Below are positions 8,720 to 25,164 of a DNA stretch of 64,000 nt, piece by piece; positions within the stretch are counted from its first letter, which is position 1, and the number at the start of each line of letters is the position of its first letter. The DNA is taken from contig JAKSQM010000004.1 in assembly GCA_024404115.1 (NCBI GenBank), forward strand, positions 62,001-126,000, read 5' to 3'. This DNA comes from Clostridia bacterium (lineage in GTDB: Bacteria > Bacillota > Clostridia > Oscillospirales > Acutalibacteraceae). A model generated the notes under the pieces. The model was not told the DNA's origin. It did not search any database and saw only the letters and a program-made list of their open reading frames with translations. Both the position numbers and the translations under genes were made by a program.

Positions 8720-9661
8720 TTATATTTTTTCTTCAAGATAAGGCTTGCCGTTCCTTATCATAACAGACTTAATAAAGCTGTGCTTTTTGAAATTTCTTGG
8801 GCGGATAACAACCTTGTCGTCATAAACCTCAAGCTGAAGTCCAACGCAGAAAGATTTGTCTTCACCGTGGTGATTTCCGCAGGCAAGGCTGGGCAGATTT
8901 ATAAGGTTAAGATTATCCTCTTTTTCAAAGCTTGCATAGCCATTCTTTTTAAAGCAGTTTTCGCCGCAAAGACCCATGTGTGAATGACCGCTGAAATAAT
9001 AAACATTTTTATACTGCTTCATTATTTTTTCAATTTCGTCAGATCTTTCGCCGATTCCGCCCTCGTCAAGAGTTGAATACTCTTCGCTCTTATCCCAGGT
9101 GATTGGCAGGCCATGCTTCTGATTAAGGCTCTGATGGCAGAAAACAAAAATCGGGTTTCCGCTTTCGCCAGCTTTTGCCATTTCGTCAGTGAACCACTGC
9201 ATTTCTTCATCGCTTATAGCGGCTTCACAGCCTGAATCGCTGTCTGTTGCAAGGCAGATGAAGTGATAGCCGTTCACTACATAAGAGAAATAAGGCTTCT
9301 CTCTTTTTTCGTGGCAGATAAGCTCATAATATTTTTTGTAGTTTTTAAGAGCAGCGTCATAGCCGTCGTCATTCCAGCTGTCGTGATTACCTAAAGGGAG
9401 GATAATCTTTTTTGCAGCATTTGGAACTTTATCAAAACATTCCTTTGTCATGCTCCAGTTTATTTCAGAGCCACGGGATGTTGTGTCGCCAACTGTCATA
9501 AAAACATCAACTGGAGCGATGCTTTCTTTAGCGTTTTTTAATGCACATTTCATCCTCATTTTTGGAAGCCATGGCATTGGATGCTTTTCATCAATATGAG
9601 TGTCGCTGACGATAGTGCAGTTGAGCTTTATACCGTCATAAAGTGGTTTCATTTTGCTCAT
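8720..9661 (-). CDS. Calcineurin-like metallophosphoesterase
   Basis: All five motifs of the metallophosphoesterase fold are present in order: SDTHID (residues 19-24), VGDTTS, LGNHDSW, FCHQS and SGHSHMG. These supply the ligands for a two-metal centre that hydrolyses phosphate mono- or diesters. No signal peptide is visible, so it is probably cytoplasmic. A Cys-containing stretch near residue 235 lies between the last motif and the C-terminal beta region. It starts with ATG behind AGAGGT, 20 nt downstream of the alkaline-phosphatase-superfamily gene, and is the second gene of the operon. The substrate is unknown. Confidence 0.85.
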   Translation of the reverse strand: MSKMKPLYDGIKLNCTIVSDTHIDEKHPMPWLPKMRMKCALKNAKESIAPVDVFMTVGDTTSRGSEINWSMTKECFDKVPNAAKKIILPLGNHDSWNDDGYDAALKNYKKYYELICHEKREKPYFSYVVNGYHFICLATDSDSGCEAAISDEEMQWFTDEMAKAGESGNPIFVFCHQSLNQKHGLPITWDKSEEYSTLDEGGIGERSDEIEKIMKQYKNVYYFSGHSHMGLCGENCFKKNGYASFEKEDNLNLINLPSLACGNHHGEDKSFCVGLQLEVYDDKVVIRPRNFKKHSFIKSVMIRNGKPYLEEKI

Positions 9662-9681
9662 TTTTTTACCTCTTTCTTGTA

Positions 9682-11241
9682 TTAAAAATTATAATATTTT
9701 TTAAGATTTTCAACATCATTTTCTGTGAAAGATCCGTCAAAAATAAACAGGTCATCCATATTAAAAATGAAGTTAAAATATTTATCATTGTGCTGGTTTG
9801 CGCCGTCATTACCAACAGTGAACGGCAGGTTATCCATATCGCAAAGGTGTCTTTCTTCAAGAGCGCAAACTCTGACAAGCTTAAAGTTGTGATAAATTCT
9901 CAGTTCAGATTTTTCTTTATCAAAAACAGTAATATTGTGAAGCCAACCCTCTGAAACATCATCGTGATAAGGCGTAACAAGCTCCAGCCTGCCATCACCG
10001 TCGGCAACAGAGAAGCGTGTATCACCGTCGCAAAATGTCTGGGTGAATCCACGGGAACTGCGATTTTTCCAGAACCAATCCTGTGTGGAGCAAACGCAGA
10101 CTTCCTCGTTAAGTGAGCTGTCAAGTTTAATCCAGAAGGCGAGGGCGAAGCTGTCTTTTTTGAATTTCAAATCTTCTGTAACGGCATATCCTGTTTTGCC
10201 AAGCTCTGCCCTTGCACCGAAAACGCCTGTGCTGTAATATTTGATTGTGCCGTGCTCAGTGAATTTATTTTTGCCAGTTTCATCTTTGATTTCATCATCA
10301 AAAAACATTGCAAGTTTTATTCTTTTTTCATCAAAAAATGATGCAAGACCTTGTTCACTTTTAAACGCAGGAGTTACTCTCGTTTTTATGTTATTTTTTT
10401 GAGGAGCAGGGGCGATATAATCGTTCACTTTTTGGGTAAAAATATTGTCGGGAATCTGCGAAGAAAATCCTGCTTTTTCAAACTGCGGAATATCAATTCC
10501 AAAAGCATAAAGCACAAGGGCGGCAACATCTTTGGTCTGTGCAAATCCCATCTGACTTTTTTCAATTCCTTTACCCGTAACAGCAAAATAAATGAAGCGT
10601 TCCTCTTTTGTGTAACCGCCATGACCGCCTCTTATTCCGCCATGGTCTGCAAGGCAGATGAAAAGTGTATCATCAAAAATGCCAGCCTTTTTGTAAGCCT
10701 CTGCAATGCGAAGAACATAATCGTCCGTCTTTTCAATCTGCTTGATATGACCCTCTGTGCCGTACCAGAAATGATGCCCTGCGCCGTCAACGTTATCAAA
10801 CTGAATAAAAAGAAAATCGGGCTTCTTTTCGATAACTTTTTCGATTTCTGCGCAGAGCAATTCATCATCGTCTGCTGTGATTAAATCGACACCCGCATCC
10901 TGCTCAATAATGCCACGATTTATAGGGTCCCAGTTACTGCATGCGGCAAGGTAAGCGTCGGGATATTCTTTTCTTATCCTTGCAAAAACTGTTGGCAGGT
11001 CTTTGTTTTCATAAGGGAATCTGTCAACAATGCTGTTGGTCAGCTGATGAACAGACGGATTACAGCCAATGAGCATTGCACCCCAGTTCTCTGCGCTGAT
11101 TGTGGGGTCCATTGAAAGTGCGTCATATGTAACTGCGCCATTTTCAAAAAGTGAATCAATATTCGGTGTGTTTGCATTGCGGTTGTAATTGCCCATGCCG
11201 TCAATGCCGATAACAACAGTGTGCTTGTATCTTTTTGTCAT
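9682..11241 (-). CDS. Alkaline-phosphatase-superfamily phosphodiesterase fused to a LamG-like domain
   Basis: Residues 8-270 have the layout of a type I phosphodiesterase/alkaline phosphatase core: VIGIDGMG gives the first metal Asp, the PTISAENW segment carries the likely Thr/Ser nucleophile, DNVDGAGHHFW supplies Asp and His ligands, ADHGG supplies Asp-His, and GGHGG the last His. Residues 320-519 form a beta-rich region resembling a concanavalin/LamG module (FALAFWIKLD, then FIFNMDDLFIFDG). LamG modules are usually extracellular, yet no signal peptide is visible, which is odd. It is the first gene of a three-gene operon with its own promoter. The substrate is unknown. Confidence 0.8.
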   Translation of the reverse strand: MTKRYKHTVVIGIDGMGNYNRNANTPNIDSLFENGAVTYDALSMDPTISAENWGAMLIGCNPSVHQLTNSIVDRFPYENKDLPTVFARIRKEYPDAYLAACSNWDPINRGIIEQDAGVDLITADDDELLCAEIEKVIEKKPDFLFIQFDNVDGAGHHFWYGTEGHIKQIEKTDDYVLRIAEAYKKAGIFDDTLFICLADHGGIRGGHGGYTKEERFIYFAVTGKGIEKSQMGFAQTKDVAALVLYAFGIDIPQFEKAGFSSQIPDNIFTQKVNDYIAPAPQKNNIKTRVTPAFKSEQGLASFFDEKRIKLAMFFDDEIKDETGKNKFTEHGTIKYYSTGVFGARAELGKTGYAVTEDLKFKKDSFALAFWIKLDSSLNEEVCVCSTQDWFWKNRSSRGFTQTFCDGDTRFSVADGDGRLELVTPYHDDVSEGWLHNITVFDKEKSELRIYHNFKLVRVCALEERHLCDMDNLPFTVGNDGANQHNDKYFNFIFNMDDLFIFDGSFTENDVENLKKYYNF

Positions 11242-11265
11242 AAAAAACTTCCTTTGTATTTATAG

Positions 11266-11294
11266 ATTATATATTAAAAGTGTTCGTTTTTCAA
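11266..11294 (-). promoter_or_regulatory. Promoter of the phosphoesterase operon
   Basis: Minus-strand TTGAAA and TATAAT boxes with exactly 17 bp between them, about 25 bp upstream of the start at 11241. This separates the operon from the glycyl-radical genes upstream. Confidence 0.7.
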
Positions 11295-11322
11295 TGCTGT
11301 ATTTCATTTTTAGAAAGAATTT

Positions 11323-12168
11323 TTATAATCCCGATGGCGTATAGATGCAACTGAATTTTTTTGCTATTTCTTTCATATACTCAGCTGAGGGAGGCACGAT
11401 ACTTTCTATATCATATTTTCTTCCAAGGGAATTATATTTTTCTTTGCCCGTGTTGTGGTATGCTAAGATTTCAAGGGGGGTGTTGCCTGCAAAAGCTTTC
11501 ACCTTTTCAATTTCTGATTCATTAAGGGTGGGGATAACAGGCATTCTGAAAATCAAATTTTTGTTTTCACTTTTTAGCTTTTGGGCATTATCTAAAATGA
11601 GTTGATTAGGAACACCTGTGAGCTTTTTATGAAGAACTTCGTCAATGCACTTAATGTCGCACAAAATTATATCAAGAAAAGGCAGAACTTTTTGGAAATT
11701 TTTCCATGGAACATTTGCCGCTGTTTCAATAGCTGTTCCAATATTTTTTTCTTTGCACTTTCTCAGAATTTCTGCGGCAAAATCTGATTGCAAAAGCGGC
11801 TCGCCGCCAGAGAGCGTAACACCGCCGCCTGAAGTTTCATAAAAGGCTTTGTCTTTTATTACTTCTTCCACAACCTCGTCAGCTGTTACTTTTTTGCCTG
11901 TGATTTTTCTTGCATTCTGTGGGCAGATTTCAACACATTTTCCGCAGGCGGTGCATTTATTTGTGAAAGTATTTTTGCAGAAAATTTCACATTCACCGCA
12001 GCCGATACACTTTGCGTGGCTGAGCATAAGCTCGGTATTTTTGTTTTGGGATTCGGGATTATGGCACCACAGACATTTTAAATTGCACCCTTTAAAAAAC
12101 ACGTTGGTGCGTATGCCTGTGCCGTCAAAAATGCTGAATCGCTGAATGTCAAAAATCATTCCGTCCAT
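11323..12168 (-). CDS. Glycyl-radical enzyme activating enzyme (radical SAM, PflA family)
   Basis: A radical S-adenosylmethionine protein of 281 residues. The CxxxCxxC cluster motif lies at Cys28, Cys32 and Cys35 (GCNLKCLWC). It is followed by an inserted two-cluster ferredoxin-like region (CIGCGECEIFC and CTACGKCVEICP, about residues 54-85), as in activases of the larger non-PFL glycyl-radical enzymes. GGGVTLSGGEPL is the SAM-binding motif. It installs the glycyl radical on its partner under anaerobic conditions. The start ATG lies one base after the stop of the glycyl-radical enzyme, so the two are translated as a pair. Confidence 0.93.
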   Translation of the reverse strand: MDGMIFDIQRFSIFDGTGIRTNVFFKGCNLKCLWCHNPESQNKNTELMLSHAKCIGCGECEIFCKNTFTNKCTACGKCVEICPQNARKITGKKVTADEVVEEVIKDKAFYETSGGGVTLSGGEPLLQSDFAAEILRKCKEKNIGTAIETAANVPWKNFQKVLPFLDIILCDIKCIDEVLHKKLTGVPNQLILDNAQKLKSENKNLIFRMPVIPTLNESEIEKVKAFAGNTPLEILAYHNTGKEKYNSLGRKYDIESIVPPSAEYMKEIAKKFSCIYTPSGL

Positions 12169-12169
12169 A

Positions 12170-14353
12170 TTACATTACCTGCTCTGTGCGTTTGATAATA
12201 TTATCCTGAAGTCCCTCTTCAAGCTCAACAAAATAATCGCTAAATCCGCCAACACGAACAATAAGATTTTTATATTTTTCGGGATTTTTCTTTGCCTCTT
12301 TAAGCTCGTCTGCACTTAAAACATTCACTTGAAGTGTCTGACCGCCTAAGCGAAAATAGGTTTTTGCAAGGGCGATAAAAGACAGGATTCCCGTGGGAGT
12401 ATTGAACTGGTTTTTTTGGAATTTCATCTGCAAGACATTACCGCTTGTGGCAAGAAATTGATTTGCTTTTAACACAGAGTTGAGAAGTGCGGTGGGGCCG
12501 TTTTCATCGCAGCCTGGCACTGCACCAATGCTGTCTGCAAGGGTTGAGTCATCTCTGTGCCTGCCATTTGGAAGTGCACCGACGCTGGCACCGTATCTTG
12601 CCGCACGCTCAAATGTGGAGCAGCCAAAGCCAAATTTTCCTCCTCTGAATGCAGATTTAGTCTGACCGTAGCGATAAATATGGTCGGTGATTTCAGCATA
12701 AATTCTATCAACATCATCAATATCATTGCCGAATTTATCATAAGAATAAAGGTCTTTCTGCATATTTTCGTAACCTTTAAAATCTGATTGCAAAGCATCT
12801 TTAAGCTGGGACATTGTGTATTTTTTCTCATCAAAAACGAAGTGCTTTATTGCCGCAAGGCTGTCTGCTGCATCGGGAAGTCCTTCGGTGAGAATTTGTG
12901 CATGACCGTAATAGGGACCTCTGTTTTTATAATCAAGTCCTTTTTCAATGCAGCCCTGAATAACAAGCGAGTGCCACGGATTTGGTGCGTGCTCTGCAAA
13001 AACACGCTGTGCGTAATTTGAAATTTCCACAACAGTGTCAGTGAGAAAATCTGTCTGTTTATAAAAGGCATTCAGCAATTTTTCAAATGAATCAAACTCA
13101 TCTGCGTTGCCTGTTGAAAGACCGATTTTTTCAAAGCATTTTTGGCATACACCGTCAAAAAGAGCAAATTCAAGAGCCTTGATAACGCTGATTTCTCCGT
13201 CCTCAAGTCCCATATGCGATTTGCCGAAAATGTCAATCTGATTGCATCCGTTCATGCAGTAAAGATGAGCATCGCTTGCAGGAATTCCGATAGCTTCAAG
13301 GGCGGGACAAACACATTCGTCATTATAAATTGCAGGCATACCAATGCCCGTTGCGATCGTTTCAACCGCCTCTTTCCACGCTCTTTCGGGGCTGTTTCTG
13401 TGAAAGCGCATGGTGATGTTTGGGGTTGTGTAGTGCTTTTCACGGGCAACACGCAAAATGTCATAAGTCAACTCACAACATCTGTCATTATAAAACTCAT
13501 CTGAGCCGCCAATGCAAAGATTCCACGCACGAACTTTATAAAAAAGCTCCCATAATTTTTCAAGGCATTTGTATCTGTCCTGCTCGTCATGTTTTTCATA
13601 ATATCTGCCAAGGGCATAGTCAAAAAGGCCCGGTGAGTCGTTATCAATAAAACTGTAAGCAAGCCAGAAAAACTGACAGGCTTCGAAAAAATCTCTCGGC
13701 TGATTCTGCGGAATATTCTGAAAAGCCGAAGCAATTCTTTTAAGAATTTTTGCATCATTTTCGCTTGCAGTTTCAATCATTTTTTCTGCAAGAATTCTAT
13801 ATCTTTCTGCAAGAATTTCAAGGGCAGAAAGTGCAATTTCAAGTGAGTCATAAAACGATTTTTTATCGGTATGAATTTTTTTGAAAAGATTTATTTTTTC
13901 TCTTATTCCGTTTGTGCCGATTCTGAGAAGCATTTCATAATCGGGGTTTGCATGACCTGACCCTGCGCCCCAGCAGCAGTTGTTATCCATCAGCTTAAAG
14001 TGATTGTTTGTAAAAACTTCACCTGTTAAGCGAAATGTTCTGATAGGCTCAAATTCATCGTAAAGCACATCAATTTCATCTGCAAGATAAGGAAAACGCT
14101 TCTTTTGATTGTTGCGTATATTAGGATCAGATTCTATTCCACCGCCTCTTGAATAATGAATGCCCATGTTTGGAAATTCACAGCAGGGGCCTGCAAACCA
14201 GTCCGCAGGATTTATTGAAATTTCGCACTTTTCCATAAATGCTTTAAATCCACAGGCAATGCGATAATTTCTTTCATATTTCGGGTCAACACCGCTTACA
14301 TCAGCCTCTTTAAATCCAAAGGCGAATGGCTCAATCTCTCGTAAAGTTTTCAT
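12170..14353 (-). CDS. Glycyl-radical enzyme, divergent, unknown substrate
   Basis: A 727-residue member of the pyruvate formate-lyase superfamily. The C-terminal glycyl-radical motif reads RVGGFSDYF with the radical-bearing glycine at Gly703 (usual RVxGYSxxF). The thiyl-radical cysteine is Cys370 in MNGCNQIDI. In diol dehydratases, choline lyase, hydroxyproline dehydratase and isethionate lyase the cysteine sits in GCVE, the Glu acting as general base; here it is Gln372. PFL has two adjacent cysteines, also absent. The substrate is therefore not predictable and may be new. No microcompartment shell genes are nearby. The upstream leader has a small inverted repeat. RBS GAGGTG supports the ATG at 14351-14353. 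Confidence 0.9.
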   Translation of the reverse strand: MKTLREIEPFAFGFKEADVSGVDPKYERNYRIACGFKAFMEKCEISINPADWFAGPCCEFPNMGIHYSRGGGIESDPNIRNNQKKRFPYLADEIDVLYDEFEPIRTFRLTGEVFTNNHFKLMDNNCCWGAGSGHANPDYEMLLRIGTNGIREKINLFKKIHTDKKSFYDSLEIALSALEILAERYRILAEKMIETASENDAKILKRIASAFQNIPQNQPRDFFEACQFFWLAYSFIDNDSPGLFDYALGRYYEKHDEQDRYKCLEKLWELFYKVRAWNLCIGGSDEFYNDRCCELTYDILRVAREKHYTTPNITMRFHRNSPERAWKEAVETIATGIGMPAIYNDECVCPALEAIGIPASDAHLYCMNGCNQIDIFGKSHMGLEDGEISVIKALEFALFDGVCQKCFEKIGLSTGNADEFDSFEKLLNAFYKQTDFLTDTVVEISNYAQRVFAEHAPNPWHSLVIQGCIEKGLDYKNRGPYYGHAQILTEGLPDAADSLAAIKHFVFDEKKYTMSQLKDALQSDFKGYENMQKDLYSYDKFGNDIDDVDRIYAEITDHIYRYGQTKSAFRGGKFGFGCSTFERAARYGASVGALPNGRHRDDSTLADSIGAVPGCDENGPTALLNSVLKANQFLATSGNVLQMKFQKNQFNTPTGILSFIALAKTYFRLGGQTLQVNVLSADELKEAKKNPEKYKNLIVRVGGFSDYFVELEEGLQDNIIKRTEQVM

Positions 14354-14615: not shown

Positions 14616-15707
14616 ATGGCTTCAGTGAAAATGAGAATAATCCTCGAAAACGGTTCTGAATATTGCGGAACTGCTTTTGGATCAGCCAAAGAAAAAATAA
14701 CAGAGCTTGTTTTTAACACATCAATGGCAGGGTATCAGGAGATTCTTTCTGACCCGTCATACACAGGGCAGGGCATTGTAATGACATATCCGCTTATAGG
14801 CAATTACGGTATGGCAGACGATGACTATGAAACAGAAACGCCCACAGTTGACGCAATGATAGTCCGTGAAAATAACGACGAGCCGTCAAATTTCAGATGC
14901 AGTGAAACTCTCAGCGGAGTTATGGAAAAATATTCTATAACAGGTGTGCAGGGGATAGACACACGAAAGCTCACCCGTGAAATCAGAAATTACGGAAGCT
15001 GTAAGGCACTTATTACACCAGTGGATATTTCTGTTGAAGATGCCGTTGAATTGCTTCAAAAAACTGAGCTTCCATGTGATGCTGTCAGCCGTGTGAGCCG
15101 AAAGAAAATCACAGAGTATAAATGCGAAAATCCTAAATATCATGTGGCGGCATTTGACTGCGGAATGAAGCAGAATATTGTCCGCTCATTTAATGAAAGA
15201 AATTGTGATGTTACTGTTTTGCCGTGGAATACTCCTGCTGAAAAGGTGTTTGAAATCGCTCCCGACGGTGTGTTCCTTTCAAATGGCCCTGGCAACCCCA
15301 CAGATGTTAAAGAGCTGATTGAAACAGCCAAAAAGCTTATTGGAAAATTCCCGATTTTTGGCATCTGCCTTGGCCATCAGATTCTTTCTTTGGCATATGG
15401 CGCAGAAACATACAAGCTGAAATTCGGACACAGAGGCGGCAATCATCCTATCAAAAATCTTGAAACAGATAAGATTGAAATAACTTCACAAAATCACTCT
15501 TATGCGGTTAAGGTTGAGAGCCTTGAAAAGACAAAATTAAAGCTGACGCACATAAATCTTTTGGATAACACAGCGGAGGGTGTTGCCTGCGAAGAAGATA
15601 AAGTTTTTGCAGTACAGTATCACCCCGAAAGCGCACCAGGCCCGCAGGACAGCGCATATCTTTTTGATAAATTTATCTCTATGATGGAGGAAAACAAAAA
15701 TGCCTAA
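14616..15707 (+). CDS. carA: Carbamoyl-phosphate synthase small (glutaminase) subunit
   Basis: A 363-residue protein of normal length for the family. The N-terminal half is the CarA-specific domain ([20 protein letters not shown]). The C-terminal half is a class I glutamine amidotransferase with nucleophile Cys in FGICLGHQ and the catalytic His-Glu in YHPESAPGP. It releases ammonia from glutamine and passes it to CarB for carbamoyl phosphate, feeding pyrimidine and arginine synthesis. ATG follows AAAGGGG. The last 8 nt overlap the start of carB. Transcription is probably controlled by the leader terminator. Confidence 0.97.
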
Positions 15708-18700
15708 AAGAACTGATATAAATAAAATTCTTGTAATCGGTTCTGGACCGATTGTTATAGGTCAGGCGGCAGAGTTTGACTATGCAGGCACGCAGGCTTG
15801 TATGGCTTTAAAAGAGGAGGGCTATGAGGTTATTCTCTGCAACTCCAACCCTGCCACAATTATGACAGATACGTCAATTGCTGATAAGGTTTTTATGGAG
15901 CCGCTGACAGTTGAATATGTTGCAAAAATAATCAGAAAAGAAAGACCAGACGCAGTCCTCCCAGGTATCGGCGGTCAGACAGGTCTTAACCTTGCAATGC
16001 AGTTAGAAAAGCTTGGTGTTTTAAAAGAGTGTGATGTTGAGCTTCTCGGCACAAAAAGTGAAAGCATAAACAGGGCAGAGGACAGAGAGCTTTTTAAAGA
16101 GCTTTGCGAAAGCATTGGCGAGCCTGTTTTGCCCTCAGAGGTTGTAAGCTCTGAAGAAGAGGGATATATAATTGCAGAGAAAATCGGCTATCCTGTTGTA
16201 CTTCGCCCTGCGTTCACATTGGGCGGCACAGGCGGCGGCTTTGCAGAGGATAAAGAAGAATTTTCGCAGTTAATCAAAAATGCACTTTCCCTTTCACCAG
16301 TTCATCAGGTGCTTATTGAAAAGAGCGTTAAGGGATATAAAGAGATTGAGTATGAGGTAATCCGTGATTCAAACGATACCGCAATTACCGTTTGCAATAT
16401 GGAAAATCTTGACCCTGTGGGCATCCACACTGGCGACTCAATTGTTGTCTGCCCGTCGCAGACTCTTACAAATAAAGAGTATCATATGCTTCGAGACAGT
16501 GCGCTTAAAATTATCCGCTCACTTGAAATTGAGGGCGGCTGCAATGTTCAGTTTGCGCTTGACCCCAAATCTTTCCAGTATTATCTCATTGAGGTAAACC
16601 CACGAGTTTCACGCTCATCTGCACTGGCTTCAAAGGCAAGCGGATATCCGATCGCCCGTGTTTCTGCAAAAATCAGCGTTGGTATGCGTCTTGACGAAAT
16701 TCAGCTTGCAAATACAATGGCTTGCTTTGAGCCTGCACTTGACTATATTGTTACAAAAATGCCACGCTTCCCCTTTGATAAATTCGCAGATGCAAACAAC
16801 AGCCTCAGCACACAGATGAAAGCAACAGGCGAGGTTATGAGCGTTGGCAGAACAGCGGAGGAAAGCCTTTTAAAAGCTGTCCGCTCACTTGAAATCGGTG
16901 TTTATCATCTTTACATGAAAAAGTTTGATGATTTTTCAACAGAGGAAATGGCGGAATATATTAAAATCGGCACTGACGATAGAGTTTATGCAATTGCAGA
17001 ACTTCTGCGCCGTGGATTCAGCAAAGAAAAAATTGCAAAAAATACAGGCATTGACCATTTCTTTATCAGAAAAATCAGTTCAATTGTTGAGATGGAAAAC
17101 AAGCTTAAAAATGCTCCCGATGATCTTTCGGTGCTTTATGAAGCAAAGCGTATGGGATTTTCTGATCTTGCAATTGCAGATTACTGGAACACAACATCAA
17201 GAAATATTTTTGAAATAAGAAAAGCCAACGGCATTATGCCAACATATAAAATGATTGACACCTGCGCTTCTGAATTTAAGAGCTATGTGCCTTATTTCTA
17301 TTCAACTTATGAGGAAGAAAATGAATCAATCGTATCCCAAAAGAAAAAGATAATTGTTCTCGGCTCAGGCCCTATCAGAATCGGTCAGGGCGTTGAGTTC
17401 GATTACTCTACAGTTCACGCTATCAAAACAATCAAAAGTGAGGGCTATGAGGCTATTATCATCAACAATAACCCAGAAACAGTTTCAACCGATTACACCA
17501 CATCCGATAAGCTCTATTTTGAACCCCTTTGCGTTGAGGATGTTATGAATATCATCACTCTTGAGAATCCAGAGGGTGTTATCGTTTCTCTTGGAGGTCA
17601 GACAGCGGTCAACCTTGCACAGCCTCTTGAGGATTACGGTGTAAAACTTCTTGGCACAGATTGCGCCGCCATTGAAAAGGCAGAGAACAGAGATTCTTTT
17701 GAAAAGCTTCTTATTTCGCTTAACATCCCCCAGCCAAAAGGACTTGCAGTTACAAATATTGAGGACGGTATCAAGGCTGCGGCAGATATTGGTTATCCTG
17801 TTCTTGTTCGCCCCTCATTTGTTCTTGGCGGAAGAGCAATGCAGATTGTTTCTAAAGAAAAAGATTTGCGTCATTACCTCAAAACTGCCGTTGAAATTGA
17901 CGAGGATAAACCCGTTCTTGTTGATAAATATATTCAGGGCAAAGAGGTTGAGGTTGATGCAATTTGCGACGGCGAAAATGTTTTTGTGCCAGGTATTATG
18001 GAGCTTGTTGAGCGTACAGGTGTTCACTCTGGCGACTCTGTGAGCGTTTACCCAACATTCAGCGTGTCTGATAAAGTTAAGGGCAAAATTCTTGAATATT
18101 CCAAAAAATTAGGTCTTGGTATCGGTATTATCGGTCTTTTCAACATTCAGTTTATTGTTGATAAAAATGACGATGTTTATATTATCGAGGTTAATCCCCG
18201 TTCATCAAGAACAGTGCCATTCCTTTCAAAATCAACAGGCTACAGTCTTGCAGATATTGCCTCACTTGTAATTATGGGCAAGAGCCTGCGTGAACAGGGC
18301 ATATATGACCTTTACCCCGAAGAAAGGAAACGCTGGTATGTTAAAGCTCCTGCATTCTCTTTCTCAAAGCTTCACGGAATGGATTCATATCTTTCACCCG
18401 AAATGAAATCAACTGGTGAAGCAATCGGCTATGATGATAAGCTTCACAGAGCAATGTATAAGGCGCTTGTTGCATCTGGAATGAAGCTTCAGAATTACGG
18501 CACAGTTCTTGTAACTCTTGCTGACGAAGATAAGGTTGAAGCAATGCCACTTATAAAAAGATTTTACGATATGGGCTTTAATATTGAGGCAACATCTCTC
18601 ACAGCGGAGTATCTTAAAAATTATGGCATCCGCACAAGAGTAAGGGGTAAAATCAGCGAGGGCAGTACGGACGTTCTTGACTCAATCCGTTCTGGATATG

Positions 18701-18879
18701 TGAGCTATGTTATCAATACCCGTGCGATTATGTCTGGCGTGCATTATGAGGACGGCGTTCAGATTCGCCGCTGCGCAACAGAAAATAATGTAACAATGTT
18801 CACTTCTCTTGATACAGTAAGAGTGTTGCTTGATGTGCTTGAAGAAATCACAATCAGCATTTCACTGATTAACAGTTAA
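15700..18879 (+). CDS. carB: Carbamoyl-phosphate synthase large subunit
   Basis: A 1059-residue protein of standard length with the two homologous synthetase halves: [18 protein letters not shown] near residue 12 and [17 protein letters not shown] near residue 550, each with an ATP-grasp domain ([15 protein letters not shown] in the first, [15 protein letters not shown] in the second). The last 140 residues form the MGS-like allosteric domain that binds UMP and ornithine in known enzymes. It makes carbamoyl phosphate from bicarbonate, ATP and ammonia channelled from CarA. Overlap with carA implies coupled translation. Confidence 0.98.
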
Positions 18880-18882
18880 GCT

Positions 18883-19416
18883 ATGAAAAATAAAAAAACA
18901 ATTCAATCCATTGCGGTGGCATCGGTTTTTACGGCAATTATCTGCATCAGCGCACAGATTTCTGTGCCAATGCCATACGGTGTGCCTGTAACGTTGCAGA
19001 CCTTTGCCGTTGCACTTTGCGGTTATTGCCTTGGTGCAAAAAAGAGCCTTATGTCAATTGTCGCATATATTTTAATCGGTCTTGCAGGTGTGCCCGTTTT
19101 CTCAAATTTTAACGGGGGAGCGGCGGCACTTTTCGGCAAAACAGGCGGGTTCATTTTTGGATTTATTTTCCTTATACTTTCTTGCGGATTTGCCGAAAAA
19201 ATCGACAGAAAAATTTTAAAAATTCTAACAGGAATGGGCGGAATTATTCTTTGCCATATAACAGGAATAAGCTGGTTTTCGTTCCTCACTAAATCGTCAT
19301 TGTTTTCATCGGCTGTGATGGTTTCAATTCCATTTATTCTGAAAGATGTTGTGAGCGTTGTTTTAGCAGAGCTTCTTTCTGAACGGCTGAAGAAAATAAA
19401 GAATCTTCCTATCTGA
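18883..19416 (+). CDS. bioY: BioY-family biotin transporter (ECF S component)
   Basis: A 177-residue membrane protein with about six hydrophobic segments and BioY hallmarks: VPVTLQTFAVALCG near residue 35 and GKTGGFIFGFIF near residue 82. BioY captures biotin alone or with the EcfAT energising module; no ecfA or ecfT gene is in the window. The start follows carB by 3 nt without a strong ribosome site of its own, so translation is probably coupled to carB. Joining biotin uptake to carbamoyl-phosphate synthesis is unusual. A terminator follows directly. Confidence 0.9.
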   Translation: MKNKKTIQSIAVASVFTAIICISAQISVPMPYGVPVTLQTFAVALCGYCLGAKKSLMSIVAYILIGLAGVPVFSNFNGGAAALFGKTGGFIFGFIFLILSCGFAEKIDRKILKILTGMGGIILCHITGISWFSFLTKSSLFSSAVMVSIPFILKDVVSVVLAELLSERLKKIKNLPI

Positions 19417-19516: not shown

Positions 19517-20554
19517 TTATTCAGCTCTATCCATAGCAACCTGATAATCTTTAAGGTCTGTGAAGATTTCGTTTGTATAAGGATTCTTCTTAGCCTTGAT
19601 TGAACGCATAATGATTGCTGTAAGAACAAGAACGTTAACTGCAAGAGCGATGATAGCAACGATACCCTGTGCTCTGGGGTCTGCGCTTGCGGGAGCAACA
19701 GCTTCTGTAGCACCGATTATGTCGAAGTCAACGGGATAAACTGATGACTTTGTTGTGAATACGCTGTAATCCTGGAATGCAGGAACAACCTGAGCGAACA
19801 TGCACCAGAGAGCAAGAGTATTAGCTCTGTTCTGAATCCAGCCGCCCTTATTCCAGAAGAAGTTTGCGAATGTGGGAGCAAGGAGAAGTGCAAGACCGCA
19901 ATACCATGCGTGTGTGGGAAGGTTGTTGTAGGTGTATTCAAAGTTCCAGAGGTCATATGCGATGATGTAAAGCCAAACCATGTCGGGCCAGAGCATATCG
20001 TCCTTTTTCTTTGATGAGTAGATGCCCCACCAGCCAGTCATGCAGAAGATGTTGATGATACCTGCAAGACCGTTGAGGATGTTCCACCATCCGCCATAAA
20101 GCCAAACGCCCTCTGATGAGAACCACCAGCCGCCTGCAAGAGAACCTGCACGAACAACTGACTCAAAGTCGCTTACAACAGCAATAAGGATGTTGATTGC
20201 AACGATGATGAAGGGGAAAGGTTTGAACCATTCTTTTTTGCCGATGCCCCATTTATATTTGAGCATCATAAAGCCGATACAGCCTGCTGTTGAGGCGTAA
20301 AGCTTTGCGTAGTGGAACCAGCTGTTCATATGTACGTAAGTGGGGTTGTTAAGTGCCCACTCAGCGCCTGTGCCTGCTGCAATGTAAACAGCTACAAAGT
20401 AAGCTGTAAGAGCTGCAGGAAGGATGCAGAAACAGAAAAGTCCACCAAGTTTTGTGCGTCTTGAAAACTCATTGATGAGAACAAGACCAACGAATACGAG
20501 CAGCCAACCAAGTAACTGCCAGCCGGAGTTTTCTCCGTAGATGTGGAATAACAT
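19517..20554 (-). CDS. Tryptophan-rich polytopic membrane protein (possibly DUF5692)
   Basis: A 345-residue integral membrane protein with about nine hydrophobic segments and many Trp and Tyr residues, for example GGWWFSSEGVWLYGGWW in the middle. It resembles the DUF5692 family in length and composition, but I cannot confirm that. Function unknown. ATG at 20552-20554 is preferred over an upstream in-frame TTG because GAAAGGA precedes it. It is the last gene of the leftward cluster containing hypA, hypB and the Fe-S/FAD oxidoreductase. Between hypA and this gene (20586-20605) lies a hairpin without a T tract, perhaps an mRNA processing or stability element. Context suggests a membrane partner of that redox module. 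Confidence 0.65.
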   Translation of the reverse strand: MLFHIYGENSGWQLLGWLLVFVGLVLINEFSRRTKLGGLFCFCILPAALTAYFVAVYIAAGTGAEWALNNPTYVHMNSWFHYAKLYASTAGCIGFMMLKYKWGIGKKEWFKPFPFIIVAINILIAVVSDFESVVRAGSLAGGWWFSSEGVWLYGGWWNILNGLAGIINIFCMTGWWGIYSSKKKDDMLWPDMVWLYIIAYDLWNFEYTYNNLPTHAWYCGLALLLAPTFANFFWNKGGWIQNRANTLALWCMFAQVVPAFQDYSVFTTKSSVYPVDFDIIGATEAVAPASADPRAQGIVAIIALAVNVLVLTAIIMRSIKAKKNPYTNEIFTDLKDYQVAMDRAE

Positions 20555-20619
20555 TGTTTTTCGTCCTTTCAATATTTTATTTGCAGAGTGGAGTTCCCTC
20601 CGCTCTAAAGACCGTAAAG

Positions 20620-20964
20620 CTAATATGCTTCAATTTCTTTGATGTTTATCTCGTTACCCTTTAAAAGATATGTTTTTTCGCTTTCGCAATAAGGGCAGAT
20701 TCTGCCGTGCTGAACGGTGGGGTAAGTTTGCTGACAACCTTCGCAGAATGTTACGGCAGGGAGCTTAATAATTTTAAGCTCCGCACCGTTTAAAAGCTCG
20801 CTTTTGTCTGCCGCCCATCGCCAGCAATCACCAAGATATTCATCGATAACACTTGAAACCTCGCCAAGCTCAAGAGTAACGCTCTGAATTTTTTCAAGCT
20901 CGTTATCTTTGCCCACCTTTTCAAGTGATTCAATTATATGAAATACAATTCCTAATTCGTGCAT
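20620..20964 (-). CDS. hypA: Nickel metallochaperone HypA
   Basis: A 114-residue protein with the two HypA features: the N-terminal MHELG nickel site (His2, Glu3) and a zinc ribbon with two CxxC pairs (CEGC and CPYC, about residues 71-91). HypA hands Ni2+ to nickel enzymes, usually NiFe hydrogenase, together with HypB. Its ATG shares one base with the stop of the preceding oxidoreductase gene (TAATG), so translation is coupled. No HypC, D, E or F gene and no hydrogenase subunit is visible in this window. Confidence 0.93.
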   Translation of the reverse strand: MHELGIVFHIIESLEKVGKDNELEKIQSVTLELGEVSSVIDEYLGDCWRWAADKSELLNGAELKIIKLPAVTFCEGCQQTYPTVQHGRICPYCESEKTYLLKGNEINIKEIEAY

Positions 20965-23732
20965 TATTTCTTATTTTTCTTTGCGGCACGCTTGATTTTA
21001 ATCTCACGCTTGAGCATATAGGGCAGAATCTTTTTGAATTTATCCTCTGATCTGACAAAATCACTGCATTCGGGAAGATCACGGTGAAGAGTGATAGCGT
21101 CAAATGCGCATTTTGTTGTGCAGACACCGCAGCCAATGCACTTGTTGGGGTCAACAACAGATGCACCGCAGCCAAGGCATCTTGCAGTTTCAATTTTTAT
21201 CTGCTCCTCTGTAAGTGGAAGATGAGCATCACGGAAAGATTTTTTAGCGTCGATTGATTTGTTAAGACCTGTGAGCTGTCTCTTTGAACAGTCATAATCA
21301 TCAACAACAATGTTGTCTTTATCAAGCTCAATGAAATCGTTGCGATTTCTGCCGATTGTAAGGCTTGCATTTGGCTGAACAAATCTGTGAATTGAAATTG
21401 CGCCCTCTTTACCTGCGGCAATGGCATCAATTGCAAATTTAGGTCCAGTGTAAACATCACCGCCAACAAAAATGTCTGGCTCAGCTGTCTGATATGTAAG
21501 CTTATCTGCAACAGCTCCGTTGCCTCTGCCAAGCTCAACCTTTGTGTCTTTAATAAGGTCGCCCCATACGATGCTCTGACCGATACTCATAAATACATGA
21601 GAGCATTCAACTGTGATAGTGTCATTCTCATCATAAACGGGAGCGAAGCGTTTGTTTTCATCATAAACAGAAACGCACTTTTTAAGCACAATACCTTTAA
21701 CCTTGCCGTTTTCTGTGAGGATTTCTTTTGGTCCCCAACCGCAGTTGATGGCAATGCCCTCTTCTGTTGCTTCTGCAATTTCTTCTGCTGATGCAGGCAT
21801 ATTGTCTTTATCCTCAAGGCAATACATAGAAACTTTCTGCTCGCCGCAGCGGATGCTTGTTCTTGCAACATCTATTGCAACATTACCGCCACCGATAACA
21901 ACAACATCGCCTTTAAGGTCGAATTTCTCTTTTTCGCCAGCTTCACGCAGGAAGTCAACAGCAGACATAACACCCTCTGCGTCTTCGCCTGCAATGCCAG
22001 CCTTTCTGCCGCCCTGGCAACCGATTGCAATGTAGAAAGCTTTGTATCCCTGCTCACGAAGCTCGGCGATTGTTACATCCTTGCCAACCTCAACACCGCA
22101 CTTGAATTCAACGCCCATTTCACGAAGAATATCAATTTCAGCGGCAACAACATCTTTTTCAAGCTTGTATGAGGGGATACCGTAAACCAGCATTCCGCCT
22201 AACTTTTCGTTCTTTTCAAATACTGTTGGGTAATAGCCTTTTTCTGCAAGGTAGTATGCACAGCTCAAACCAGCAGGACCGCCGCCGATGATGGCAACTT
22301 TCTGTGTGAATCTGCCTCTGTTTGAGGGAACGATAATCTGAGGAATGAATCTTGTTTCTGCATCAAGGTCTTTCTGTGCAATGAATTTTTTAACATCATC
22401 AATTGCAACGGCTTCGTCAATTGTTCCTCTTGTGCAGGCATCCTCACATCGTCTGTTGCAGATTCTTCCGCAAACTGCGGGGAACGGATTGTTTTTCTTT
22501 ATAAGTGCAAGTGCATCTGTGTATCTGCCTTGAGCAGCAAGTTTAAGATAACCCTGAACTGCAACATGTGCAGGGCAAGCAGTTTTACAAGGTGCTGTGC
22601 CAGTGTCATAACAGTTAATTCTGTTGTTATCACGGTAGTCCATATCCCATTTGTCGGGACCCCATTTGATTTCATCGGGAAGCTCGTGCTTTGGATAAAC
22701 AACGGGGCCGTCTTTTGTGCAAAGCTTCTGACCAAGTTTAACTGCGCCAGCGGGGCAATACTCAACGCATCTGCCGCAGGCAACGCATTTTTCACTTGCA
22801 ACATTTGCAACATATGCTGAACGGGACATATTTGGTGTGTTGAAAAGCTGAGATGTTCTCAAAGCGTTGCAGATGTTTACATTACAATTGCAGATTGCAA
22901 AAATCTTGCCTGTGCCGTCAATGTTTGTTACCTGATGAACAAAGCCGTTATCTTCCGCTCTCTGGAAAATTTCCATAGCTTCATCATATGTAATATATCT
23001 GCCTTTCTGTGTTTCAACAAGGTAGTCAGCCATATCGCCAACACCGATACACCAATCGTTAAAATCATCACCGCAGCCCTCGCCAAGAACCTGACGGGAT
23101 GCACGGCATGAGCACATACCAGCGGCATACTTGCCCTCATATTTTTTCAGCCAGTATGAAATATGCTCTATATCAATGCTTGTGTTTTCTGCTTCAATTG
23201 CTTTTTCAACAGGGATAACGTGCATACCGATTCCTGCTCCTCCGGGAGGCACCATAGGTGTAACCTTTTCGAGGGGCATAAATGTCATTCTTTCAAAGAA
23301 TTTGCCAAGCTGAGGATTTTCTTCGATCTGTGAAAAACGCATATTGAAAAACTCTGCACTGCCTGGAACAAATGCAGGCAGAACATACTGCTTTTCGTGC
23401 TTCGGATTTTCCCAGTTATATTCAAGCAGACCGATATAGCTCATATCGTAAAGGATTTTTTCAAGGTAATCCTTATCTTTGCCTGTTGCTTTCATAAGCT
23501 GCTCAATTGTCATTGGAACTCTGACTTTCATTTTAAGGGCAATCTCTGCCATTTCGTCAGTAACAAGAGCGTCAAGACCGTAATATTCGGGATCTTCGGG
23601 CTTAACTCCGCCAATCTTTGCAGGCAATCTGTCTGTAATTTTTCTGCCCAGCTTCATTATCAGCTCACGGGGTTCTTTTGGCGGTTCGGGGATAGCGCAA
23701 TCTGGTGCATTTGGTGTAAATTCATCTTTCAC
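20964..23732 (-). CDS. Large Fe-S/FAD pyridine-nucleotide oxidoreductase (GltD-like core)
   Basis: A multidomain electron-transfer protein of about 922 residues. In order: a winged-helix-like region (about 45-125); a Cys-rich region with MCSCRASR and CNCNVNIC; a 4Fe-4S ferredoxin motif CVACGRCVEYCP (about 315); the GltD-type motif CKTACPAHV with CGRICNRRCEDAC (about 390-440); an FAD-binding motif IIGGGPAGLSCAYYL (about 485); an NAD(P) motif VIGGGNVAIDVART (about 620); and a C-terminal second ferredoxin pair with CIGCGVCTTKCAFDAI (about 870). It should pass electrons between NAD(P)H and an Fe-S partner. GTG at 23730-23732 is chosen because GGAGGG lies 8 nt upstream and hypB ends 2 nt before; an ATG at 23747 lacks a site. 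Confidence 0.88.
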   Translation of the reverse strand: MKDEFTPNAPDCAIPEPPKEPRELIMKLGRKITDRLPAKIGGVKPEDPEYYGLDALVTDEMAEIALKMKVRVPMTIEQLMKATGKDKDYLEKILYDMSYIGLLEYNWENPKHEKQYVLPAFVPGSAEFFNMRFSQIEENPQLGKFFERMTFMPLEKVTPMVPPGGAGIGMHVIPVEKAIEAENTSIDIEHISYWLKKYEGKYAAGMCSCRASRQVLGEGCGDDFNDWCIGVGDMADYLVETQKGRYITYDEAMEIFQRAEDNGFVHQVTNIDGTGKIFAICNCNVNICNALRTSQLFNTPNMSRSAYVANVASEKCVACGRCVEYCPAGAVKLGQKLCTKDGPVVYPKHELPDEIKWGPDKWDMDYRDNNRINCYDTGTAPCKTACPAHVAVQGYLKLAAQGRYTDALALIKKNNPFPAVCGRICNRRCEDACTRGTIDEAVAIDDVKKFIAQKDLDAETRFIPQIIVPSNRGRFTQKVAIIGGGPAGLSCAYYLAEKGYYPTVFEKNEKLGGMLVYGIPSYKLEKDVVAAEIDILREMGVEFKCGVEVGKDVTIAELREQGYKAFYIAIGCQGGRKAGIAGEDAEGVMSAVDFLREAGEKEKFDLKGDVVVIGGGNVAIDVARTSIRCGEQKVSMYCLEDKDNMPASAEEIAEATEEGIAINCGWGPKEILTENGKVKGIVLKKCVSVYDENKRFAPVYDENDTITVECSHVFMSIGQSIVWGDLIKDTKVELGRGNGAVADKLTYQTAEPDIFVGGDVYTGPKFAIDAIAAGKEGAISIHRFVQPNASLTIGRNRNDFIELDKDNIVVDDYDCSKRQLTGLNKSIDAKKSFRDAHLPLTEEQIKIETARCLGCGASVVDPNKCIGCGVCTTKCAFDAITLHRDLPECSDFVRSEDKFKKILPYMLKREIKIKRAAKKNKK

Positions 23733-23734
23733 TT

Positions 23735-24403
23735 TTAAGCCCTCCATTCATTTATCTGATTTCTGAGCCAATCAGCCCATTTATCAATTCCTTCGCCTGT
23801 TTTGGCGCAGATTGGAATAACCTCTGCCTTTGGATTTCTCATATGAACATACTCTTTGCATTTTTCAAGATCAAAATCAAAATAAGGCAATACATCAATT
23901 TTATTTACAAGCACAACATCGCAAACTGAAAACATAAGTGGATATTTCAGCGGTTTATCGTGCCCTTCGGGAACAGAAAGAATCATAGCGTTTTTGGATG
24001 CGCCTGTGTCAAATTCAGCAGGGCAAACAAGGTTGCCGACATTTTCAAGAATGGCAAAATCAACATCATCTGTCTGAAGTCCGTCAAGACCCTGCTTTGT
24101 CATTCCTGCGTCAAGGTGGCACATTCCGCCCGTGTGAAGCTGAATAGATTTAACGCCTGTTTTTGCAATTGTTATTGCGTCAACATCAGAGTCAATGTCA
24201 GCCTCCATAACGCCGATTTTGTATTCATCTTTAAGTGCTTCAATTGTCTTGGTGAGCGTTGTTGTTTTGCCAGAGCCAGGGGATGACATAAGGTTCAAAA
24301 GAAAAATCCCCTTTTCTTTAAGCTCTTTTCTCAGAAGCTCAGCCTGCTCGTCATTGTTGGCAAAAACACTCTGTTTTATTTCAAGAATTTTAACTTCTTT
24401 CAT
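23735..24403 (-). CDS. hypB: Hydrogenase nickel incorporation GTPase HypB
   Basis: A 222-residue SIMIBI-class GTPase. The P-loop SSPGSGKTT lies at residues 40-48, the metal-binding Cys95-His96 in GGMCHLDAG, and the guanine-specific NKID near residue 165. With HypA it delivers nickel using GTP hydrolysis. It lacks a His-rich nickel-storage N-terminus. It sits between the small membrane-protein genes and the Fe-S/FAD oxidoreductase, within 12 nt and 2 nt respectively. The separation of hypB from hypA by a redox enzyme gene, with no other hyp genes, is unusual. Confidence 0.95.
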   Translation of the reverse strand: MKEVKILEIKQSVFANNDEQAELLRKELKEKGIFLLNLMSSPGSGKTTTLTKTIEALKDEYKIGVMEADIDSDVDAITIAKTGVKSIQLHTGGMCHLDAGMTKQGLDGLQTDDVDFAILENVGNLVCPAEFDTGASKNAMILSVPEGHDKPLKYPLMFSVCDVVLVNKIDVLPYFDFDLEKCKEYVHMRNPKAEVIPICAKTGEGIDKWADWLRNQINEWRA

Positions 24404-24415
24404 TGTAAACTCCGT

Positions 24416-24736
24416 TTATTTTTTGTTTTTATTTTTAAGTGCCGCCTTAACCTTGCCGTCGGGGTCTTTTATAAGAAGAGTTACAACCCACACAACAAGA
24501 GCAAGAGCAATTACAGATAAGCCGAGGAATGCGTCATTGAGCATATCAAGAGGGGCGGGATTGAAATATTCCGCTTTAAGCTCAGCGTATTCAAAAACAG
24601 CGTCAACCAGCCACATAAGTGATGCACCCCAGAAAAGCCAGCAAAGAACACCAGTGCAAAGCTTGTTGTCAACAGGGCGTGTGTACCACACAACTGTTGA
24701 AATTACTGCGGCAAAAACTGTGAGAAGTAATGTCAT
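24416..24736 (-). CDS. Small membrane protein of the hyp cluster (106 aa)
   Basis: Three hydrophobic segments (about residues 1-17, 28-48 and 68-90) and a basic C-terminal tail. Not recognised. The second segment, CWLFWGASLMWLVDAVFEY, resembles the WGGSFLLAFEHLW stretch of the neighbouring 143-residue protein, so the two may be related subunits of one membrane complex. Its ATG overlaps the stop of that gene by 4 nt (ATGA), and hypB follows 12 nt later. Context suggests a membrane anchor or quinone- or ion-linked part of the nickel/redox module; this is inference. Confidence 0.65.
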   Translation of the reverse strand: MTLLLTVFAAVISTVVWYTRPVDNKLCTGVLCWLFWGASLMWLVDAVFEYAELKAEYFNPAPLDMLNDAFLGLSVIALALVVWVVTLLIKDPDGKVKAALKNKNKK

Positions 24737-25164
24737 ACTGCACTTTCCTCATTGTGTGTTTCAACTGCATCTTTTCTCTTTTCGATTACATTTGAAACAA
24801 TAACCATCACTGCCCAAACTGCGGTGAGAAGCACTGCCATTGCAACGCCGACTGTGGCAATTTCATAAAGCATCTGCGTTGTGGATTCAGAATTTGCCAT
24901 TGCAGTTAAGAACGGGAACCACGGCACAACCTCGCCATGCCATAAATGCTCAAATGCAAGGAGGAATGAACCGCCCCAAAGAAGCTTTGCAAGCCACATA
25001 AGCTTTCTTGAAAATCTGATTTTTTCATTTTCACTTGATTTTAATGCAGCGTTTCCGTTAGAAAACTTGTGAGCAGAAAGTGAATTGTTTTCTTTCTTTT
25101 TAATAATCTGAGTGGCAACTGTAACAATAACAGCTTCTGCCACTGTTGCGGTGAAACATGCCAT
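24733..25164 (-). CDS. Small membrane protein of the hyp cluster (143 aa)
   Basis: First gene of the six-gene leftward cluster. Hydrophobic segments at about 3-18, 57-75 and 99-121, with a charged middle (residues 22-52) and a charged tail. The segment WGGSFLLAFEHLWHGE contains His and Glu residues that could bind a cofactor. Not recognised as any named family. ATG follows a strong AAAGGAG site at 7 nt. It is preceded by a consensus promoter overlapped by an operator-like palindrome, so the whole cluster is probably regulated. Confidence 0.65.
   Translation of the reverse strand: MACFTATVAEAVIVTVATQIIKKKENNSLSAHKFSNGNAALKSSENEKIRFSRKLMWLAKLLWGGSFLLAFEHLWHGEVVPWFPFLTAMANSESTTQMLYEIATVGVAMAVLLTAVWAVMVIVSNVIEKRKDAVETHNEESAV

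Follow-up and report, generated by a model that had tools for sequence, protein, structure and literature searches.

A putative IsrA-type reductase operon with nickel chaperones and a conserved membrane protein pair in a Clostridia bacterium

The closest described relative of the locus considered here is the isoprene-induced operon of Acetobacterium wieringae, which encodes the 901-residue oxidoreductase IsrA, two HypA proteins, HypB and a ferredoxin (Kronen et al. 2023, PMC10134865). According to that article, the A. wieringae genome lacks hypCDEF and a NiFe hydrogenase, and the authors suggested IsrA as the recipient of the nickel. In the same text IsrA is placed in the "clade 9" oxidoreductases, as a putative isoprene reductase, and the genes near its 988 homologues encode HypA (73%), HypB (56%), DUF5692 proteins (40%) and TetR regulators (21%). 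We analysed a six-gene cluster from a Clostridia bacterium (GCA_024404115.1), located in a stretch of 64,000 nucleotides of contig JAKSQM010000004.1 (positions 62,001 to 126,000, forward strand), hereafter the window. The preliminary description of this DNA had reported six leftward, tightly spaced genes, and all six open reading frames (ORFs) were confirmed on the minus strand, as follows from the first gene to the last:

24733..25164, minus strand, TM143: small membrane protein of 143 residues, of no named family, with an M-A-C start and an EHxWHGE motif
24416..24736, minus strand, TM106: small membrane protein of 106 residues paired with TM143 (4-nt overlap), of no named family
23735..24403, minus strand, hypB: nickel-inserting GTPase of 222 residues, after a 12-nt gap from TM106
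20964..23747, minus strand, IsrA-type oxidoreductase (very probable assignment): 927 residues when counted from the first ATG, overlapping hypB by 13 nt
20620..20964, minus strand, hypA: nickel metallochaperone of the HypA family, 114 residues, 1-nt overlap with the oxidoreductase gene
19517..20554, minus strand, DUF5692 gene: polytopic membrane protein (PF18948), from the first in-frame ATG, after a 65-nt gap; an alternative TTG start is possible at 20572

The hypB-oxidoreductase-hypA-DUF5692 core

The presence of the large oxidoreductase was confirmed, but not its reported length of 922 residues, which implies a later start. A Pfam search placed PF07992 and PF14691 in the 927-residue protein, both above cut-off, and its architecture comprises a cysteine-rich N-terminal domain of about 310 residues, [4Fe-4S] sites, PF14691, the flavin adenine dinucleotide (FAD)/NAD(P) domain PF07992 and C-terminal ferredoxin sites. 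The N-terminal extension, of about 300 residues, carries two CxC motifs (C212/C214 and C286/C288) plus further cysteines: all 51 alignment rows have C212, C214, C233, C286, C288 and C293, which form an extra cysteine site, and C225 is kept in at least 90% of these rows. Judged by the architecture, the cysteine site and the HypA/HypB neighbours, and not by a tree including IsrA, the window locus is almost certainly an IsrA-type ("clade 9") cluster. Since architecture and extra cysteine site are common with IsrA, the locus would be a member of a described neighbourhood rather than a new system; the "undescribed system" of the preliminary description had in fact been published in 2023 as the neighbourhood of oxidoreductase, HypA, HypB and DUF5692 (PMC10134865). 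The core is already described, and it is the membrane pair and the fatty-acid linkage, reported below, that appear to be new.

Named genomes were scanned with the DUF5692 protein and the best 80 of 353 loci were used, some of which end at contig edges; many of their titles refer to Lachnospiraceae, Oscillospiraceae/Ruminococcaceae or gut material. The order hypB-oxidoreductase-hypA-DUF5692 was exact in 39 of the 80 loci, and the others showed oxidoreductase-hypA-DUF5692 (12), oxidoreductase-DUF5692 (5), hypB-DUF5692-oxidoreductase-hypA (3), hypB-oxidoreductase-DUF5692 (2), hypA-DUF5692 (1), mixed strands (1), the oxidoreductase only (1), or DUF5692 with neither hypB, hypA nor oxidoreductase within the fetched stretch (16, e.g., L030, L048 and L074; L and G numbers denote loci and genomes, respectively). 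This four-gene core is conserved beyond chance. By contrast, the six-gene order is not conserved: blastp and a motif search found relatives of TM143-TM106 in none of the 80 loci, 40 of which hold hypB with more than 1.5 kb of upstream sequence.

The DUF5692 protein matched PF18948 with 466 bits against a cut-off of 27 (E = 4.9e-140), and 5.7% of its residues are tryptophan. In the class sample the N-terminal domain of the oxidoreductase is present in 33 of 391 genomes and DUF5692 in 12 of 245; 10 of these 12 are among the 33 (binomial 1e-9, assuming that the 245-genome sample lies inside the 391-genome sample), and the contig ends at the DUF5692 match in the remaining two (G110 and G170). Since three genomes (G045, G068 and G199) have the DUF5692 and oxidoreductase genes on different contigs, DUF5692 tracks the enzyme beyond simple linkage. 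It is likely the membrane partner of the oxidoreductase. The DUF5692 protein of G199 (L023, 4908-6074) has an N-terminal extension of about 128 residues, whose start looks by eye like a signal peptide, and which gave no Pfam match.

In a quick tree of 88 rows, made of relatives of the window protein only, the window oxidoreductase fell among sequences labelled Lachnospiraceae/Oscillospiraceae (77% identity to the L033 protein), and the five same-order sequences were scattered. The core is also found on a 267-kb Subdoligranulum variabile record labelled as a mobilizable plasmid. Horizontal transfer of the four genes is likely.

The TM143-TM106 membrane protein pair

The two small membrane proteins matched no family above cut-off, including any transporter model of Pfam or NCBIfam, and no relative was found among solved structures. 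On the other hand, the alignments revealed strictly conserved positions: M1, A2, C3, E10, E72, H73, W75, H76, G77 and E78 of TM143 in 48 of 48 rows, and M41, W42 and D45 of TM106 in 50 of 50. TM106 occurs in 10 of 60 close relatives, its own genome counted, and in 41 of 391 genomes of the class. To inspect its surroundings we collected 12 stretches from close relatives, nine through TM106 and three through the oxidoreductase, and 40 stretches from the class sample, in which all 42 places except the window and G362 were used. TM143 and TM106 were on the same strand in all the 47 loci holding both, and in 45 of these they overlapped or lay within 17 nt (ORFs taken from the first start codon), the other two being 2.2 kb apart. 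TM143 and TM106 are a pair of conserved genes outside any named family, and the pair appears to be new.

In 21 of 49 TM106 loci a lar gene, belonging to the pathway of nickel-pincer cofactor synthesis, comes next in the same orientation, at most 236 nt downstream. LarB, LarC and LarE were above the NCBIfam cut-off in L136, and LarC was recognised by Pfam in L136 and L141, while the others were identified by blastp; besides these two loci, the pair stands directly before lar genes in L139, L201, L204, L221, L227, L228, L232, L238 and others. LarC was found at 21 of 47 TM106 loci versus 2 of 101 other loci, and in 36 of 41 TM106 genomes versus 175 of 391 overall (Fisher 2e-9; the 41 genomes come from 22 genera, and members of one genus do not count as independent). 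LarC is missing from five TM106 genomes, namely G000, which is that of the window, G029, G062, G072 and G183. In G062 and G183 a gene of 302 codons follows the pair, encoding in L236 (G062) an ArsP_1 permease. In G296, a relative outside the class sample, no LarC was found and the pair is divergent from the oxidoreductase (L142).

As the pair co-occurs with two unrelated nickel pathways, we propose nickel supply as its function, a reading that we hold at even chances. The contrary explanation, an envelope or stress pair standing near lar and hyp genes for some other reason, is less likely: 26 of the 47 loci have no LarC in the locus, and the lack of any transporter family or solved relative fits it too. 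Against it speak the strong association with LarC at both genome and locus level, the invariant Cys, His and Glu residues, and a regulator of the iron-dependent-repressor family directly upstream of the pair in L227 and L228. If the nickel-supply function is correct, TM143-TM106 would be a new nickel membrane module common to two unrelated nickel pathways.

Genome-wide, TM106 and the oxidoreductase were not significantly linked (5 of 41 TM106 genomes versus 33 of 391), which makes the six-gene arrangement look like one assembled in a particular lineage; within the loci examined, the pair seems to be joined to the core only in the lineage of the window.

Further observations concern the genes around the pair and the core. 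A cluster of proteins of about 476 residues is usually encoded just upstream of TM143 (12 loci, e.g., L223, L236 and L208), and the two members scanned were copper-amine-oxidase-N plus DUF362 proteins; a permease cluster of about 302 residues lies downstream of TM106 in 7 loci (e.g., L236, L216 and L218), and the one scanned was ArsP_1. In L275, L278 and L279 genes for a FecCD-type permease and a periplasmic binding protein are downstream of oxidoreductase-hypA, and these two proteins are possibly the metal-uptake counterpart of TM143-TM106 in other lineages. Moreover, in four genomes with the pair and LarC (G261, G262, G269 and G287) LarA was not matched at E ≤ 0.001; the nickel-pincer cofactor may therefore serve another enzyme there. 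According to PMC11796402, larBCE without larA occurs in about 15% of the genomes analysed. No clients are known so far for this combination.

Linoleate isomerase relatives and the candidate substrate

A hint on the substrate came from G261, a genome of the genus of the window, in which the genes run TM143-TM106-larB-larC-larE-hypB-X-hypB-oxidoreductase; larE and the first hypB are separated by 266 nt, and the contig breaks off within the oxidoreductase gene. The best solved relative of protein X (485 residues) is 2b9w (E = 8.4e-104, in two stretches), a record labelled putative aminooxidase, which we take to be the linoleate (polyunsaturated fatty acid) isomerase PAI of Propionibacterium acnes. 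PAI-like genes were observed directly upstream of hypB-oxidoreductase also in G211 and G325, with 2b9w again as the best solved relative over the full length (E = 2.8e-62 and 7.3e-42, respectively), and in G352, by blast and a Pfam amine-oxidase match; in G042 there is a C-terminal PAI fragment, four genes upstream. The comparison with 2b9w covered the proteins of G261, G211 and G325. Among 148 loci of at least 8 kb, taking matches of at least 85 bits, PAI-like genes were present at 6 of 84 oxidoreductase loci (five genomes, G211 having been fetched twice; G042 has the fragment only) versus 1 of 64 others, namely L262, which had been fetched for PAI itself. In the class scan PAI was found at E ≤ 1e-30 in 2 of 391 genomes, G211 and G307, both with the oxidoreductase.

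A relative of PAI two genes upstream of the oxidoreductase in four genomes, with a fragment in a fifth, points to conjugated fatty acids. Two results weigh against this: no PAI was found at E ≤ 1e-30 in the genome of the window, and a PAI-like neighbour was present in none of the 80 named loci. We consider a fatty acid the leading candidate, but place it slightly below an even chance. The PAI-oxidoreductase linkage itself appears to be new: the string 'linole' is absent from the main text of PMC10134865, and among the matches listed by our literature search, judged by titles and abstract openings, none related linoleate isomerase or conjugated fatty acids to IsrA-type enzymes. PMC10134865 does mention that the genes flanking the homologues of A. 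woodii and A. fimetarium include one for an oleate hydratase.

It is also conceivable, though rather unlikely, that an enzyme of the same class acts on isoprene-like hydrocarbons, terpenes or polyprenyl/carotenoid chains instead of fatty acids. The sole experimentally linked member that we found is isoprene-induced, and for other members terpenes were proposed by the authors of that study (PMC10134865). In addition, L265 (G042) contains between the oxidoreductase and the PAI fragment (9002-12431) genes for TetR, a ferredoxin-reductase-like protein and a flavoprotein of 512 residues, and the last, of the amine-oxidase family, has gamma-carotene desaturase as its only solved relative at E ≤ 1e-5 (E = 2e-14). 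However, the PAI-like genes recur beside the oxidoreductase in genomes of several families, and the loci with identified neighbours showed no recurring hydrocarbon-specific enzyme. Should the substrate indeed be a fatty acid, a gene family carried by many Lachnospiraceae and Oscillospiraceae would become a testable candidate for conjugated-fatty-acid reduction.

Nickel chaperones, proposed scheme and known systems

HypB matched TIGR00073 with 251 bits, above the NCBIfam cut-off, and keeps the metal-site motif (Cys95-His96 and Cys127). HypA, a single copy in the genome of the window, matched PF01155 with 104.6 bits, above the Pfam cut-off, and keeps His2-Glu3 and two CxxC motifs; it remained, however, under the hydrogenase equivalog cut-off of TIGR00100 (67.5 versus 88.1 bits). 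In L141, L142, L272 and L029 two different HypB genes lie close to one oxidoreductase. HypD was not found in the genome of the window, which is 84% complete; of 31 other oxidoreductase-bearing genomes 18 were without it and 13 had it, and the 18 include all four same-order genomes tested (G261, G245, G267 and G296, 91-99% complete). Because HypD was not found in G000 nor in these 18 genomes, the chaperones do not need the NiFe-hydrogenase pathway. The re-use of the chaperones, one of the two options of the preliminary description, is thus supported, and HypA and HypB are here uncoupled from NiFe-hydrogenase maturation. The refuting conditions named in that description gave a mixed outcome: no HypD turned up in this incomplete genome and relatives keep the four-gene order, but they do not keep the six-gene one.

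The likeliest nickel client of HypA/HypB is the oxidoreductase, an assignment that we regard as somewhat better than even. An unlikely explanation is that the oxidoreductase has no nickel, HypA and HypB having been repurposed for another metal or for the assembly of a multi-cysteine Fe-S site; the ligand set of the cysteine site is not established as a nickel one, and a score below the hydrogenase cut-off marks this HypA as divergent, but the canonical HypA and HypB metal motifs are all kept, and the TM143-TM106 pair is independently tied to nickel-pincer genes. The other option given earlier, by which the oxidoreductase is the redox partner of an unseen nickel enzyme encoded elsewhere, is improbable, and we judged the protein likelier to carry the nickel itself. 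In favour of that option, its NAD(P)/FAD/Fe-S module is similar to subunits that transfer electrons, such as the glutamate synthase small chain and the NfnI alpha chain. Against it, HypA and HypB adjoin the oxidoreductase itself across relatives, also in PMC10134865, and a search of G000 found neither LarA nor LarC (it did not extend to carbon monoxide dehydrogenase, urease or further nickel enzymes).

Putting these elements together, the product of the six genes is probably an enzyme linked to the membrane, possibly dependent on nickel, which hydrogenates hydrophobic molecules, perhaps polyunsaturated fats. Gene content, conservation, motifs and linkages are what the analysis shows; that the enzyme contains nickel, which way the electrons flow, what the substrate is and what the three membrane proteins do are inferred from them. 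As a tentative scheme, to which we give somewhat less than an even chance, the locus would be a membrane variant of the IsrA-type reductase operon. The GTPase HypB and HypA would supply the oxidoreductase with nickel, the most likely position being the N-terminal site of six to seven cysteines; electrons from NAD(P)H would enter via the FAD and pass along the [4Fe-4S] chain to this site, which would reduce a C=C bond in a substrate that is hydrophobic and probably conjugated. The latter could most plausibly be an unsaturated fatty acid, e.g., a conjugated diene produced by an enzyme of the linoleate isomerase type. The DUF5692 protein may hold the oxidoreductase at the membrane and/or present the lipid, and TM143-TM106 would be a nickel-supply module, acting in uptake or in hand-over at the membrane, borrowed from the nickel-pincer cofactor gene neighbourhood. 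The complete chain is unlikely to be right in every link: a membrane-bound, nickel-dependent conjugated-fatty-acid reductase, candidate for the poorly assigned biohydrogenation reductase of gut and rumen, equipped with TM143-TM106 for its nickel supply. The pair would be a new membrane family at the service of nickel enzymes that depend on HypAB as well as of those that depend on LarBCE, and its N-terminal Ala-Cys and EHxWHGE residues may be the ones that bind the metal.

Outside the operon, the plus-strand genes at 15700-19416 of the window, by eye the large chain of carbamoyl-phosphate synthase and a BioY-like transporter, are convergent to it and apparently unrelated.

Among the known systems, the maturation of NiFe hydrogenase (HypABCDEF) shares HypA and HypB with the window locus, and differs in its HypD, not found in this genome, and in its client, there being no evidence of a hydrogenase in that role here. 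The lar genes (larB, larC and larE) have TM143-TM106 as a frequent upstream neighbour in other genomes of the same class, whereas in the window the pair precedes hypB and neither LarC nor LarA was found in the genome. PAI has relatives encoded two genes upstream of the oxidoreductase in four other genomes, and was not found at E ≤ 1e-30 in that of the window. The conjugated linoleic acid (CLA) reductase of Butyrivibrio is a smaller protein, of about 60 kDa. By description only, the NADH-linked, membrane-associated reduction of cis-9,trans-11-octadecadienoate in Butyrivibrio (Hughes 1982, via PMC4478896) would fit the operon; according to this source, of 2015, the CLA oxidoreductase appears membrane-associated, used NADH 1:1 and had no entry in KEGG, COG or Pfam, even though a sequence had been reported (Fukuda 2007). 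The closest system is the isr operon of clade 9, which has in common with the window a FAD/Fe-S oxidoreductase of about 900 residues with a cysteine-rich N-terminal domain and two CxC motifs, adjoining HypA and HypB, genomes that can be without hypCDEF, and DUF5692 as a frequent neighbour already listed. Compared with it, the window operon is without the second HypA and the isr-type ferredoxin gene and, instead, has DUF5692 and the TM143-TM106 pair in a single six-gene run.

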